DNA of 64,000 bases from Evansella clarkii. GTDB taxonomy: Bacteria > Bacillota > Bacilli > Bacillales > Salisediminibacteriaceae. The notes beneath the pieces are model-generated. The model was not told where the DNA came from, made no database searches, and worked only from the letters and a program-made list of their open reading frames with translations. The translations under genes and the position numbers were made by a program. Of this stretch, positions 22,966-64,000 are shown one piece after another; the first letter of the stretch is position 1, and each line of letters begins with the position of its first letter. The DNA is taken from positions 2,192,386 through 2,256,385 of the forward strand of contig NZ_KV917376.1 in the NCBI RefSeq assembly GCF_002019695.1. The letters run 5' to 3'.

Positions 22966-23315
22966 TTAGTCGAGGAATGGGCATGTGAAACGTTCTTGCG
23001 TCCCAGCTTGGTCAGTATTTTTGCTGAAGCAGTCATGCGAGAAGCTCTCGCGTTCCCGCTTGGGTAGAATTTTTGCTGAAGCGGGTATGCAAGAAGCCCT
23101 CGCGTACCCGCTAGGCGTGTGATTTTACTGAAGCGGGCATGTGAGAAGCTCTCGCGTCCCCGCTAGGCGTGTGATTTTACTGAAGCGGTCATTCGAGAAG
23201 CTCTCGCATCCCCGCTAGGGCTGAAATTTGCTGAAGCGGGCATGTGAGAAGCTCTCGCGTCCCCGCTTGCCCAATAATTTCACTGAAGGGGGCATCCAGA
23301 AACCTCTGGCTATCA
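22966..23315. repeat. 52-bp hairpin tandem array B (about 7 units)
   Basis: Unit landmarks (GCTGAAGC or ACTGAAGC) fall at 23023, 23075, 23127, 23179, 23230 and 23282, i.e. steps of 52, 52, 52, 51 and 52 bp, with a diverged unit before them. Each unit has AGCGGG arms closing on CCCGCT and a core like GTGAGAAGCTCTCGC, so it folds into a long hairpin with an A/T-rich linker. The array lies between the TRAP operon and a nitroreductase gene. About 190 bp after it, up to 23505, hold no feature that I recognise. Confidence 0.9.
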
Positions 23316-38827: not shown

Positions 38828-39243
38828 TCAAGGGATGCAAGAAGCTCTTGCGGTACTTGAGAAGGGGAAAGGTTGCTGTTCAAGGGATGCAAGAAGCTCT
38901 TGCGGTACTTGAGGAGGGGAAAGGTTGCTGTTCAAGGGATGCAAGAGGCTCTTGCGGGAATTGAGAATGGGAAAGGTTACTGCTCAAGGGATGCAAGAAG
39001 CTCTTGCGGTACTTGAGAAGGGGAAAGGTTGCTGTTCAAGGGATGCAAGAGGCTCTTGCGGGAATTGAGAAGGGGAAAGGTTACTGCTCAAGGGATGCAA
39101 GAGGCTCTTGCGGGAATTGAGAATGGGAAAGGTTGCTGTTCAAGGGATGCAAGAAGCTCTTGCGGGAATTGAGAATGGGAAAGGTTGCTGTTCAAGGGAT
39201 GCAAGAAGCTCTTGCGGTACATGAGAAGGAGAGAGGCGCTGCT
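38828..39243. repeat. 52-bp hairpin tandem array C (8 units)
   Basis: TCAAGGG starts at 38828, 38880, 38932, 38984, 39036, 39088, 39140 and 39192: eight units exactly 52 bp apart. Each has the core GCAAGAAGCTCTTGC (or GCAAGAGGCTCTTGC) between TCAAG and CTTGA or similar arms, and a linker GGGAAAGGTTGCTG. Units differ in coordinated blocks (CGGTACTTGAGAAG versus CGGGAATTGAGAATG), as expected from unequal exchange. It lies between convergent genes. Confidence 0.95.
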
Positions 39244-53904: not shown

Positions 53905-54195
53905 GGTAACGTAAGTGGGGGCTTGCGTACCCGCTCGTGGAAAAAAACAAAGCAAGTGGTAACGCAAGAGTGTCTCGCATGCCCGCTCGGAGAAAAAACA
54001 AAGCAAGCGGTAACGTAAGAGCATCTCGCGTACCCGCTTGGGGAAAAAAACAAAGTAAGCGGTAACGCTGGAGCGTCCATCATACCCGAACTCCATGAAA
54101 AAGTGAGAGAAAGGTAACGCTGGAGCGTCCATCATGCCTGAGCTTAGTAAAATCAGTTGAGACGGTAACGTAAGAGCATCTCGCGTACCCTTCCA
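53905..54195. repeat. 52-bp hairpin tandem array D (6 units, diverged)
   Basis: GGTAACG landmarks occur at 53905, 53958, 54009, 54061, 54113 and 54164, steps of 51-53 bp. Each unit has AGCGGTAACGTAAGA arms meeting TCTCGCGTACCCGCT and an A-rich linker (GAAAAAACAAAG). Units 4 and 5 have a changed core (TGGAGCGTCCATCAT). It lies in the gap between two divergent genes, so it shares that 560-bp region with their promoters; no other feature is seen there. Confidence 0.88.
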
Positions 54196-60337: not shown

Positions 60338-61326
<989 letters not shown>

Positions 61327-61540
61327 GATGTCTGTTTACTGAAAATAAAATTAATTCAGGAGTTACTAAACAGAGCTGAACAAATTACTTTTCAGAATAA
61401 ACAATTTTTCTCTGGAAAAGTGCCATGAGGTGTCTGCGGGCGCATAGAGAATCTAACGTTTGACACATCTTTACCCCTTCTATATGGTTAGTATATGAAT
61501 TGAAACGGCACTTCTAATTTTTTATTAAAGGGGTTTTTGA

Positions 61541-61846
61541 ATGTACATTGTTACGTCCACCGTAATTGTGCCTGAACAGAAGACGGAAGAAGTGATTAAT
61601 ATATACCGTAACCGGACGAGGGGTGTTGATAAAGCTGAAGGATTCCTTTCTTTTCAGCTTCTTCAGAATGATAAAAAGCCCCAGGAACTAACCGTCCATC
61701 TTGAATGGGAAACAAAAGATAATTACCTCGCCTGGGTTACCAGTGATGAATATAAAAAAATTCATGAACTTGAAAAAAAGTATCCGGATAAAGAACTGGC
61801 TTCTATCGTTCCAAAGGTCTCCCGCTATAAGGTAGTGGCCCGATGA
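61541..61846 (+). CDS. Antibiotic-biosynthesis-monooxygenase-fold (ABM) protein
   Basis: A 101-residue ferredoxin-like ABM-domain protein (IsdG/HmoB/YgiN superfamily). IVTSTVIVPEQKTEEVINIYRNRTRGVDKAEGFLSFQLL and LTVHLEWETKDNYLAWVTSDEYKKIH fit the fold; the last includes a W and H placed as in heme-degrading IsdG proteins, but heme binding is not certain. It leads the four-gene light-sensor-like operon and its stop overlaps the next start (ATGA at 61843). AAAGGGG precedes the ATG. Its partner role in the operon is unclear. Confidence 0.85.
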   Translation: MYIVTSTVIVPEQKTEEVINIYRNRTRGVDKAEGFLSFQLLQNDKKPQELTVHLEWETKDNYLAWVTSDEYKKIHELEKKYPDKELASIVPKVSRYKVVAR

Positions 61847-62199
61847 AACAGGAAGTTAAAAGAGAAATAGTTAACGAGGCTGTAAAGCAAATTTACGATG
61901 CTTATCCAGCGTTACGGGAAAAGTTTGGCGAAAACGGGTTGAAGCGGACAGAAGAAGATAACCACCACCATCTTGACCATCTGGAAACCGCCTGTTTACT
62001 GGACGATAATAAGTACTTTACTGATTATACGGAGTGGCTTGAACGAGTTTTGACTAGCAGACAGGTAGGGACAGAGCTTATTATAGATAATTTTCAAAGA
62101 TTAAAAGAAATCATACCCGGTAAGACAGACCCTGGTGAGGAACAGGCATTTTTACGTATGCTGGATGAAGCGATTGCCATACTCAAGTCTGGCCGGTAA
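61843..62199 (+). CDS. Small helical protein of the B12-sensor operon
   Basis: A 118-residue, all-helical protein. NHHHLDHLETACLLDDNKYFTDYTEWLERVL gives three adjacent histidines and a further one, and the whole resembles a helical domain that precedes B12-binding domains in some larger sensor proteins. Here it is a separate gene directly before the B12-binding protein. Its start overlaps the previous stop by 4 nt. It could bind a metal or cofactor, or form the docking part of the sensor complex; this is inference. Confidence 0.65.
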   Translation: MKQEVKREIVNEAVKQIYDAYPALREKFGENGLKRTEEDNHHHLDHLETACLLDDNKYFTDYTEWLERVLTSRQVGTELIIDNFQRLKEIIPGKTDPGEEQAFLRMLDEAIAILKSGR

Positions 62200-62218
62200 A
62201 GCCAAGGTGGGATAACAG

Positions 62219-62881
62219 ATGATAATGGAACCGAAGCAGCTGGCTGGCCTTTTGCTTGAAGGGCGGGAGAACGAAGTAACAGAACAGTTTGTGAAAATTG
62301 AAAATAAATATTCCCGGCTAAGTTTGTATGAAGATTTCATTACCCCTGCCATGTACTATATAGGTGAACTTTGGGAAGAAAACGAAATTACTGTAGCTGA
62401 CGAGCACCTTGCTACAGCAGTATGCGATTACGCTCTTTCCAGGACGACGGATCACAGGCAGATGAATGAAGCAGAAACTGCTGTGAAAAAGAAGGCGATG
62501 CTCTTTGGTGTAGAAGGGGAGCAGCACTATATAGGAATGAAAATGGCAGCAGCGCTTTTCAGAGATAAAGGGTGGAATGTAAGATACCACGGTCCAGACC
62601 TTCCGCTGGAGCATGCACTGGCAGCAATAAAACAGTGGAAACCGGACGTCGTTTCTCTGTCTGCAGCTTTGTCGTACAGACTCCCCTCGGTGAAGGAATA
62701 TATTTCAAAAATCACCAATGGCGAATATAAACCATTAATTCTTATTGGCGGGCGGATGGCAAAAATGTACGGACTTGCCCCATTTCAAAGTGATAATGTG
62801 ATTATTATAAGGGATTTACACTCCCTTCAATACTGGCTGGATGACTGTAAGGGAGGCAGAAATAATGCAAACAGCTCTTAA
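62219..62881 (+). CDS. Stand-alone cobalamin-binding photoreceptor-like protein
   Basis: A 220-residue protein with a helical cap (about 1-85) and a B12-binding Rossmann domain (about 90-215). The cap holds W-x9-EH: Trp52, then nine residues, Glu62 and His63, the motif that surrounds adenosylcobalamin in CarH/LitR light sensors. The Rossmann part has E101-x-H103-xx-G106 (GEQHYIG), the lower-ligand motif in the form used by CarH, followed by VVSLSAALSYRLPSVKEYI and LILIGGRMAK. No MerR DNA-binding domain is present. Its stop overlaps the PAS-STAS start, so the two are probably partners. AdoCbl and light are inferred from the motif. Confidence 0.85.
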   Translation: MIMEPKQLAGLLLEGRENEVTEQFVKIENKYSRLSLYEDFITPAMYYIGELWEENEITVADEHLATAVCDYALSRTTDHRQMNEAETAVKKKAMLFGVEGEQHYIGMKMAAALFRDKGWNVRYHGPDLPLEHALAAIKQWKPDVVSLSAALSYRLPSVKEYISKITNGEYKPLILIGGRMAKMYGLAPFQSDNVIIIRDLHSLQYWLDDCKGGRNNANSS

Positions 62882-63620
62882 TCATCTGCCGGTCTCTGCG
62901 GTTGTAATAGACAGAAACTTTAAGATTCTTCATGCTACTTCAGAGGCGGCAGCACTGCTCGGTAAAGTGGATACCTTTCTTTCTGCCGTGGAGGAAGGAA
63001 GCCATGCTAAAGTAAAAAAATGGGTTAAACCTGAACAGGAAAAAATAACCCTGGAAGCAAACCTGGTTACAGAGCAAGGTGAAGTCATAGCTGCTGAACT
63101 TGCCGTCGGCTGGGGAAATGAACTTTACGGAGAGATAGTGATCTTTGAGAAGCAAAGCTCCATTAACGAAGTTACAGGGCAGCTGGCGAATCTGCGAGAG
63201 CGGCTCAGTGAAACTAATTTTGAACTTCTCAGTGAAAAAGAAAAACTGGAGGAAGCGCTGCAGGAGAATAACCGTCTGTCTGCTCCGTACATACAAATTA
63301 CGGATGATGTGGCTCTTATTCCTTTATATGGGGATCTAAACGAAAGCAAGATGAACGTTATACAAGCCAATGTACTGGCGTCTTCAAATGAACAAAGTTC
63401 AGAAACTTTGCTGTTTGACTTTACTGCAGTTGGCAGTATTGAAGCCTCTGGTGTGAAAATGCTGAAAAAAATGTTCGCCTCCCTTTGTTATATGGGAAAT
63501 GAGGTTCTTATAACCGGTGTAAAACCAGACCAGGCAAAAAGGCTGCATGAACTGGATATAAAATTACATATCGAATTTATTCATTCACTGAAATCAGCAG
63601 TAAGGAAGTTTTATGAATAA
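62865..63620 (+). CDS. PAS-coiled coil-STAS protein (RsbR-like)
   Basis: A 251-residue regulator. A PAS-like domain (about 3-105: PVSAVVIDRNFKILHATSEAAALLGK) is followed by a coiled coil (QLANLRERLSETNFELLSEKEKLEEALQ, about 108-145) and a STAS domain (about 150-245: IPLYGDLNESKM, LLFDFTAVGSIEASGVKMLKK). RsbR-type proteins with a C-terminal STAS form stressosomes that release SigB. The usual phosphorylation sites appear replaced: the segment reads VGSIEASGV. The ATG at 62865 has GGGAGGC upstream and overlaps the end of the B12 gene. It probably passes the B12 signal on; the output partner is not in this window. Confidence 0.85.
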   Translation: MQTALNHLPVSAVVIDRNFKILHATSEAAALLGKVDTFLSAVEEGSHAKVKKWVKPEQEKITLEANLVTEQGEVIAAELAVGWGNELYGEIVIFEKQSSINEVTGQLANLRERLSETNFELLSEKEKLEEALQENNRLSAPYIQITDDVALIPLYGDLNESKMNVIQANVLASSNEQSSETLLFDFTAVGSIEASGVKMLKKMFASLCYMGNEVLITGVKPDQAKRLHELDIKLHIEFIHSLKSAVRKFYE

Positions 63621-63622
63621 GT

Positions 63623-63657
63623 ACAAGGATGCATATCACTGCATCCTTGTTTTTTTT
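63623..63657 (+). terminator. Terminator of the B12-sensor operon
   Basis: ACAAGGATGCA pairs perfectly with TGCATCCTTGT around a 6-nt loop and is followed by TTTTTTT. Confidence 0.93.
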
Positions 63658-63678: not shown

Positions 63679-64000
63679 TCAAAGGACGCAAGAAGGCCTT
63701 GCATCCCTTGAGCAGGGGCAATCCTACAATTCAAGGGACGCAAGAAGGCCTTGCATCCCATGAGCAGGGGCGATCCTACAATTCAAGGGACGCAAGAAGG
63801 CCTTGCATCCCATGAGCAGGGGCGATCCTACAATTCAAGGGACGCAAGAAGGCCTTGCATCCCATGAGCAGGGGCGATCCTACAATTCAAGGGACGCAAG
63901 AAGGCCTTGCATCCCATGAGCAGGGGCGATCCTACAATTCAAGGGACGCAAGAAGGCCTTGCATCCCATGAGCAGGGGCGATCCTACAATTCAAGGGACG
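63679..64000. repeat. 52-bp hairpin tandem array E (more than 6 units, continues past the window)
   Basis: TCAAGGG (TCAAAGG in the first) starts at 63679, 63731, 63783, 63835, 63887, 63939 and 63991, exactly 52 bp apart. Units 3 onward are essentially identical. Each has GCAAGAAGGCCTTGC between GGGAC and ATCCC arms and a linker GAGCAGGGGCGATCCTACAA. The array runs over the window edge. Confidence 0.95.

Follow-up and report, generated by a model that had tools for sequence, protein, structure and literature searches.

Four genes lying head to tail on the + strand at positions 61541–63620 of a 64,000-nucleotide stretch of Evansella clarkii DNA (hereafter the window; assembly GCF_002019695.1, contig NZ_KV917376.1, positions 2,192,386 to 2,256,385) were analyzed. 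In the list of open reading frames (ORFs) they encode, in this order, an ABM-fold protein, a small helical protein, a B12-binding protein and a PAS-STAS protein. With moderate confidence, these genes (the cassette) are regarded as one operon encoding a photocobilin that is split into separate proteins and has a stress-type output via the PAS-STAS protein. This reading is based on the domains, their conservation, the retention of key residues, the operon-like arrangement of the genes and the modular output observed among relatives.

The third gene (62219–62881, + strand) encodes a stand-alone protein of 220 amino acids, predicted to be an adenosylcobalamin (AdoCbl)-binding protein of the photoreceptor type with a four-helix cap and a Rossmann domain. 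Both B12-binding (E 1.1e-14) and B12-binding_2 (E 3e-12) were matched in Pfam, and these E-values rule out a chance match. The original prediction, made from the sequence alone, had pointed to the CarH-type motifs Trp52-x9-Glu62-His63 and Glu101-x-His103-xx-Gly and to the lack of a DNA-binding domain. The motifs were indeed present, reading in full G49-x-x-W52-x9-E62-H63, G100-E101-Q102-H103-x-x-G106 and G125-x-x-x-P129, and no helix-turn-helix or other DNA-binding domain was detected by Pfam; MerR_1 was detected in L029, a CarH-like protein from the same family of genomes. All four elements of the light signature described for cobalamin domains, GxxW, EH, GxxH and GxxxP, were found in the window protein (PMC11796333). 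A PduO-type adenosyltransferase is also encoded in the E. clarkii genome, so AdoCbl could probably be made from cobalamin.

The conservation of these residues was followed in an alignment of 81 rows, which represent 80 genes including that of the window, two rows being the halves of the broken gene L098. G49, W52, E62, H63 and H103 were invariant in every gene covering them, and G125 and P129 were kept in 66 and 71 of the 81 rows, respectively. The glycine of GxxH was kept in just 19/81, with Glu, Asn or Lys in most relatives. The residue following the motif Trp was Glu in 64/81 rows, as in the window protein, and Gln in 14/81. At this position TtCarH has the His used in its bis-His light state. 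In the photocobilin SasPcob the motif Trp is directly followed by Gln (PMC11796333), and therefore the light state of the cassette proteins should resemble that of a photocobilin more than that of CarH.

When a profile of 46 B12 sequences was compared with the PDB, the best match was SasPcob (8j2w; 106.5 bits, E 1.3e-29), followed by CtMerR (86.7 bits), the predicted cobalamin protein 1y80 (77.6 bits), AbPcob (76.8 bits) and CarH (58.9 bits). The choice of CarH as the nearest comparison in the original prediction was superseded by photocobilin. A tree was then built from 58 B12 domains, those of the window protein, 26 further members of the cassette family, 6 fused photocobilins, 6 CarH-like MerR proteins, 14 corrinoid proteins and 5 MetH. 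A branch supported at 100/100 parted the window protein, the cassette family, the photocobilins and the CarH/MerR proteins from the corrinoid proteins and MetH, and the phylogeny hence agreed with the expectation that the protein belongs with CarH-type proteins and away from methyltransferase corrinoid proteins. L121 and L130, the members from cassettes with a GGDEF output, were nearer to the fused and CarH proteins than to the other 25 cassette members; long branches were seen for L121 and for one of the CarH-like rows. The GxxW-x9-EH motif was absent from the six corrinoid/MetH rows inspected, and all 19 such rows fell outside the photoreceptor clade. Identity as a methyltransferase corrinoid protein was rejected on both motif and tree. 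The sequence comparisons support the B12 protein as a CarH/photocobilin-type AdoCbl module without a DNA-binding domain.

The second gene (61843–62199, + strand) encodes a protein of 118 amino acids, which profiles, model, fold matches and residues identify as a stand-alone bilin-type globin of the photoglobin/phycobiliprotein kind. The original prediction had mentioned the products of this gene and the ABM gene as upstream helical and ABM-fold proteins that may belong to the complex, and had missed both the globin and the relationship of its neighbor to IsdG-like heme oxygenases. The best PDB match of a profile of 77 globin members was the SasPcob globin (8j2x; 9.3e-5), followed by phycocyanin alpha (3.9e-4) and AbPcob (0.0041), and 13 of the 77 matched Pfam Phycobilisome at E up to 0.01. 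The structure was predicted with a local confidence score (pLDDT) of 96.3. Among the 50 Foldseek matches listed for this model, bilin proteins came first, with query template-modeling (TM) scores of 0.67–0.82, and hemoglobins aligned at 0.45–0.57. The 50 matches listed by VIA-align comprised phycobiliproteins, SasPcob, smURFP and one "bacterial fluorescent protein," with Z 13.4–14.9 and root-mean-square deviations of 2.0–2.6 over 111–118 residues. Identity as a heme globin or truncated hemoglobin was rejected, since the fold is closer to that of bilin proteins.

Biliverdin is contacted in SasPcob by Asp270 and Trp296, the former being replaced by His in AbPcob (PMC10979010). With a numbering offset of 6, checked in the alignment on Trp61, Glu71-His72 and His108, these residues correspond in the window globin to Asp39 and Trp65, and the AbPcob row shows His in the Asp39 column. 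Asp39 was kept in 82 of 83 sequences and Trp65 in 83/83, as were His43 and Tyr62. The position of the phycobiliprotein Cys is column 36 of the globin, where Cys was found in 41/83 and Thr in 38/83 of the Bacillales globins, with Thr in the window; about half of these globins may therefore bind the bilin covalently. Covalent binding via Cys51 was rejected because this residue is not conserved.

The first gene (61541–61846, + strand) encodes a putative heme-degrading oxygenase of the IsdG/HmuQ type, with the ABM fold and 101 amino acids. Pfam ABM was matched at 7.6e-16 and NCBIfam HmuQ at 3.4e-11 (43 bits, below the cut-off of 130), and the ABM profile matched heme-degrading monooxygenases in the PDB. 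IsdG-type heme oxygenases have a catalytic Asn/Trp/His triad. In the ABM proteins of the cassette, Trp65 was kept in 73/77 and His75 in 77/77, these being the ruffling Trp and the heme ligand, respectively. As judged from these comparisons, making or carrying the bilin is the likely role of this protein. Two further ABM proteins are encoded in the E. clarkii genome; one of them (L156, 101 amino acids) keeps Asn, Trp and His by eye.

The fourth gene (62865–63620, + strand, with the ORF open from 62841) encodes the predicted output protein. It had been described from the outset as an RsbR-like protein with PAS, coiled-coil and STAS parts, and this description was upheld: Pfam STAS was matched at E 1.6e-8, the N-terminal PAS domain was weak by Pfam (E 0.06–0.09) and clear in the predicted structure, and YtvA and RsbR were the nearest STAS relatives. 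The NCBIfam YtvA family scored 67 bits against a cut-off of 250. In the model, a helix of 43 residues lies between a PAS-like domain and a STAS domain (mean pLDDT 86.8, predicted TM score 0.49), and Foldseek returned full-length YtvA first (1.7e-13) and then a Listeria stressosome chain; the overall TM to YtvA was just 0.41 because of the domain placement. A sensor domain, a helical linker and a STAS domain of the RsbR/YtvA type are thus all present.

Among relatives, the same PAS domain was observed with a STAS, histidine kinase or GGDEF part, so the output is modular. Pfam and split profiles sorted 155 output ORFs, with overlapping loci counted more than once, into 134 PAS-STAS, 9 PAS-kinase, 2 PAS-GGDEF (with weaker PAS scores, 20–21 bits) and 10 STAS proteins without this PAS. 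Counted by genome (n = 88), the output was STAS in 71 (one also with kinase), kinase only in 5, kinase plus a broken PAS ORF in 1 and GGDEF in 2, and the remaining 9 had a PAS protein without a STAS, kinase or GGDEF match at the cut-offs used. In 8 of these 9 it was a short PAS protein of 178–223 amino acids with a different C-terminus. One of the short proteins was run through Pfam and gave no match, that of G408 had a weak kinase match at a looser cut-off, and only an 89-amino-acid PAS ORF was seen in G246. At loci L309–L318, B12 genes were followed by short PAS proteins (178–223 amino acids) whose C-terminus is unassigned. An ORF of 1195–1204 amino acids with a histidine-kinase match adjoins the short PAS gene, on the opposite strand, in G150, G039, G260 and G408.

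The distribution of the cassette was then surveyed. With the window globin as query, the globin was found in 162 of 397 Bacillales genomes and in 53 of 135 genera. Pfam PF00502 was a poor detector, with 7/397 genomes, two of which matched another part of the profile at loci without the cassette. The best 80 of 200 relatives by similarity were taken as named loci, from Sporosarcina, Halobacillus, Pontibacillus, Thalassobacillus, Virgibacillus, Planococcus, Metabacillus, Sutcliffiella and others, and two of them had no globin ORF in the ORF filter, leaving 78. Whether the four genes stay together had been left to a survey by the original prediction; they did so in 59/78, with STAS in 56 and kinase in 3. 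The ABM gene adjoined the globin gene in 71/78, and a B12 gene lay within 4 kb in 65/78. The orders B12-output-ABM-globin, output-B12-ABM-globin and B12-ABM-globin-output were also seen, and the ABM gene stayed with the globin gene even where both were away from the B12 gene. A gene for 268 amino acids was located just 5' of the cassette in 31/80 named loci (e.g., Pontibacillus, L170, L171; L070:161-967), and in the one checked it belonged to baeRF family 5 (release-factor-like).

In the family of E. clarkii (35 genomes), 19 B12 loci were read and the STAS gene was beside the B12 gene in 18; G002, G005, G009, G010 and G022 carry ABM-globin at a second locus. Some B12-STAS pairs of this family lack the globin (L040–L055), and their neighborhood was often shared; it contains genes judged by eye to be DJ-1-like and HD-like, together with an alpha/beta hydrolase gene (identified by Pfam in the one checked). 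The B12 protein was present somewhere in 21 of 25 genomes chosen for a lone globin or an odd output (E 1e-15). When 299 genomes of the wider phylum were searched, the globin was detected in 9, two of these from the window's own order. At six loci it formed one protein of 358–363 amino acids, with the globin followed by the B12 domain, and at one locus there was a 202-amino-acid globin protein without B12. Two genes 3' of fused forms were checked and encoded a histidine kinase and a GGDEF protein. Globin and B12 protein have separate genes in the window and in those Bacillales cassettes that were read, with fusions seen only outside the order. The fusion of both parts elsewhere in the phylum supports contact between the separate proteins.

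The link to the stressosome was addressed through the presence and position of the rsb genes. All 71 genomes with a STAS output had RsbS (67) or, where RsbS was unsearched, RsbT (4). Three of the five kinase-only genomes were without RsbS, including G208, with a distant RsbT-like match (41%); they count as one event, because they belong to one family. RsbS was present in the other two kinase-only genomes, the two GGDEF genomes and the nine with an unclassed output, and the stressosome therefore does not force a STAS output. In raw counts, uncorrected for relatedness, RsbS occurred in 158/162 globin-positive vs. 152/235 globin-negative genomes.

The genome positions of globin and RsbS were taken from the first ~150 matches listed. 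Families f21 and f46 have 25 globin-positive genomes, and in 23 of them the globin gene and rsbS lie 7–9 kb apart, both on one strand. The exceptions were G234, with globin and rsbS on different contigs, and G378, with only a marginal globin match. Six f21/f46 loci were read, and each continued from the cassette through sigB and rsbX, the cassette being upstream of rsbRSTUVW-sigB; in L240, RsbS and RsbT were hidden by the ORF filter. In L239, the one locus annotated, the interval between cassette and rsb genes contains a rhomboid gene (opposite strand), ACPS, a YjeF-type gene, an unassigned gene that by eye encodes a lipoprotein, alanine racemase and a small unassigned gene together with one for a MazF-like toxin. 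The genome of E. clarkii itself has an rsbRSTUVW-sigB-rsbX-like operon 1.9 Mb from the cassette, in which RsbW and SigB exceeded the NCBIfam cut-offs and the other genes were named from order and resemblance. The idea that rsb genes follow the cassette thus held in two family-level groups and failed in the window's own genome. Around the 80 named loci, some of which are cut by contig ends, no rsb genes were found up to a distance of 10 kb (tblastn, E 1e-15, >40% identity).

A mechanism may be proposed that covers the chromophores, complex formation, light response, stressosome contact and SigB output. The B12 protein would bind AdoCbl and the small globin a bilin, probably biliverdin, which the IsdG-like protein would probably make or hand over, and both would assemble like the two domains of fused photocobilins. 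In photocobilins green light acts on AdoCbl and red light on the bilin, and stand-alone forms control a second protein in trans (PMC10979010). By analogy, the globin-B12 complex would serve as the light switch in the cassette and be read by the PAS domain. Green light would act on the cobalamin directly and red light via the bilin, and either would break the Co-C bond, with the complex then changing in shape or contacts. The output protein would read this change with its PAS domain, and its STAS domain, like that of YtvA, would join or touch the RsbR/RsbS stressosome and shift SigB activity.

Several observations weigh against this reading of the cassette as a split photocobilin leading to SigB. 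Taken alone, the window globin matched Pfam Phycobilisome at E 3.8e-4 with 20.9 bits, just under the cut-off of 22.2, and none of its Foldseek E-values was below 0.001 (best 0.013). In the own family, ABM and globin genes were also there at only 2 of the 19 B12 loci, those of the window genome and one same-genus genome, and B12-STAS pairs without any globin found occur in G001, G016, G032 and G033, so the B12 part is arguably able to work alone. The RsbR phosphosites Thr171 and Thr205 are not kept in the output protein, Ala202 and Arg234 being at the aligned positions. The distance from the cassette to rsbS ranged from 77 kb to 3.5 Mb in 18 other genomes tabulated, that of E. clarkii included. 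A SigB-type promoter was matched loosely in 3 of 125 cassette upstream regions vs. 2.48 expected, and was rejected as a candidate for lack of excess. The red-light effect on SigB in B. subtilis was reported to need RsbP/RsbQ, with RsbP the proposed sensor (PMC3019169), and red light can therefore reach SigB in another way. Finally, the position of the catalytic Asn is Ser6 in the ABM protein, and Ser was found in 75/77 cassette ABM proteins; heme degradation may therefore not occur, and the protein was not filed as an IsdG oxygenase.

This Ser, together with the L156 protein that keeps the whole triad, lends some weight to an alternative in which the cassette ABM protein is a non-catalytic carrier of heme or bilin and biliverdin is made elsewhere by an ordinary HmoA-like oxygenase. 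The His and Trp are kept in the cassette proteins, however, and the gene stays with that of the globin even apart from the B12 gene, and this alternative is considered possible, though somewhat doubtful. An unlikely alternative keeps the light sensor as proposed but has the STAS protein not act on the stressosome, its target being a different partner-switching pair or, directly, an enzyme. The loss of the RsbR phosphosites and the 1.9 Mb between cassette and rsb genes in E. clarkii would fit such a target, as would the relatives with histidine kinase or GGDEF outputs, which imply that the sensor is not bound to SigB. Against it stand the RsbS or RsbT in every STAS-output genome, the location of the cassette close to rsbS in two groups, and YtvA and RsbR as the nearest STAS relatives, of which YtvA likewise lacks Thr at the first site (T171), with Glu in the alignment. 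Less probable still is a role of the B12 protein and the globin in sensing the status of cobalamin and of bilin or heme (cofactor or redox/oxygen) rather than light, with the PAS-STAS protein reporting the metabolic state. Cobalamin and heme products are metabolites, and an IsdG-like gene is in the operon. A heme globin is reportedly used by the oxygen-sensing stressosome. That stressosome is a precedent for such a role (PMC4976288), but the residues kept here are the light-responsive cobalamin set (the Trp near the adenosyl group, Glu-His and GxxxP), GxxW-x9-EH is lacking in the inspected corrinoid/MetH rows and all such rows lie outside the clade, and the fold match of the globin is bilin-type, not heme-type.

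From these comparisons, the closest known system is therefore a photocobilin, split in two, and not CarH. The photocobilins SasPcob/AbDPcob (Zhang et al., 2024, PMC10979010) share the signature of the AdoCbl domain and the two biliverdin contacts of the bilin-type globin, and there is evidence that their stand-alone forms act in trans. Whereas they are one polypeptide, the two parts are separate proteins here, and what is probably one operon also holds an IsdG-like gene and a PAS-STAS gene of its own. A network link of photocobilin to STAS/SpoIIE proteins was noted in that article for Saccharothrix, and the strings "bacill," "Firmicutes" and "operon" are absent from its main text. The BBAG-2 globins (Rockwell et al., 2023, PMC10151467) also combine a separate globin and B12-binding protein with a heme oxygenase association, and two such globins were shown to bind biliverdin. 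Unlike the cassette, their clusters have a bilin reductase (pre-2) or are from Myxococcales, no STAS output is described in the portion available, and the globin motif is RGMC vs. mostly [C/T]-x-E-D here. Both articles treat photoglobin as a globin-B12 fusion family.

The output side resembles YtvA/RsbL, the LOV-STAS blue-light stressosome proteins, which share a PAS-superfamily domain, a helical linker, a STAS domain and light input to SigB; YtvA, the top fold match, also shares the STAS domain without Thr at the RsbR T171 position. In contrast to YtvA, which has its own flavin, the PAS domain here is predicted to be the reader of a separate B12/bilin complex. CarH/LitR share the AdoCbl domain and its motifs, and differ in their MerR DNA-binding domain and in the residue after the motif Trp, Glu here. 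No description of this cassette was found in a literature search of titles and abstract openings in a partial collection. Tentatively, the cassette may be a plug-in module of Bacillales, in which a split photocobilin that supplies its own chromophore feeds a green/red signal, from protein to protein, into a conserved PAS adaptor and, through it, into STAS, kinase or GGDEF. The STAS form would then be an unrecognized B12/bilin light receptor for SigB, and an unusual bilin may be the product of the Ser-type IsdG enzyme.

At the locus, the four ORFs were confirmed on the + strand (61541–61846, 61843–62199, 62219–62881 and 62841–63620). The globin gene starts inside the ABM stop codon (ATGA overlap, 61843–61846), and 19 bases separate its end from the B12 gene. 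The overlap of the STAS gene with the B12 gene was correctly predicted from the beginning; the ORF is open from 62841, and the likely start is ATG 62865, because of the strong ribosome-binding site AGGGAGG at 62850–62856 and the N-termini of relatives, so the overlap is 17 bases. A SigA-type promoter-like site (TTGACA-17-TATGGT, 61460..61488, + strand, 10/12 matches) lies 5' of the cassette and is weak by itself, with 6 such sites in the region vs. 4.8 expected in shuffles. An intrinsic terminator-like hairpin with an 11-pair stem and a T-run (63623..63650, + strand) lies directly 3' of the STAS gene, with 3 such sites found vs. 2.0 expected; both calls are consensus matches only.

Just 5' of the cassette, an L-lactate dehydrogenase gene (60377–61326, named by eye) is broken by a frameshift into two overlapping ORFs, and is either a pseudogene or a sequencing error; in the same-genus relative L039 it is one ORF of 315 amino acids. 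Tandem-repeat arrays of ~52 bp were found at four places of the window (63679–64000, 22979–23295, 38828–39236 and 53928–54088), the repeats at 63679 being 98% alike. A PHROGs search gave no match.

SigB responds to red and blue light in B. subtilis and Listeria, and a 2011 paper stated that the red-light receptor of B. subtilis was not unambiguously identified and that the mechanism in Listeria was unknown (PMC3019169). A two-pigment receptor beside a STAS protein is a testable candidate for light inputs to SigB in species carrying the cassette. If the cassette works as proposed, photocobilins would extend beyond fused proteins to a split form, found in a large group that is easy to grow. The cassette would also show how, in nature, a single photosensor is connected from protein to protein with several outputs, which is of use for green/red optogenetic parts, and could explain green and red light sensing in cassette-bearing relatives of Bacillus.

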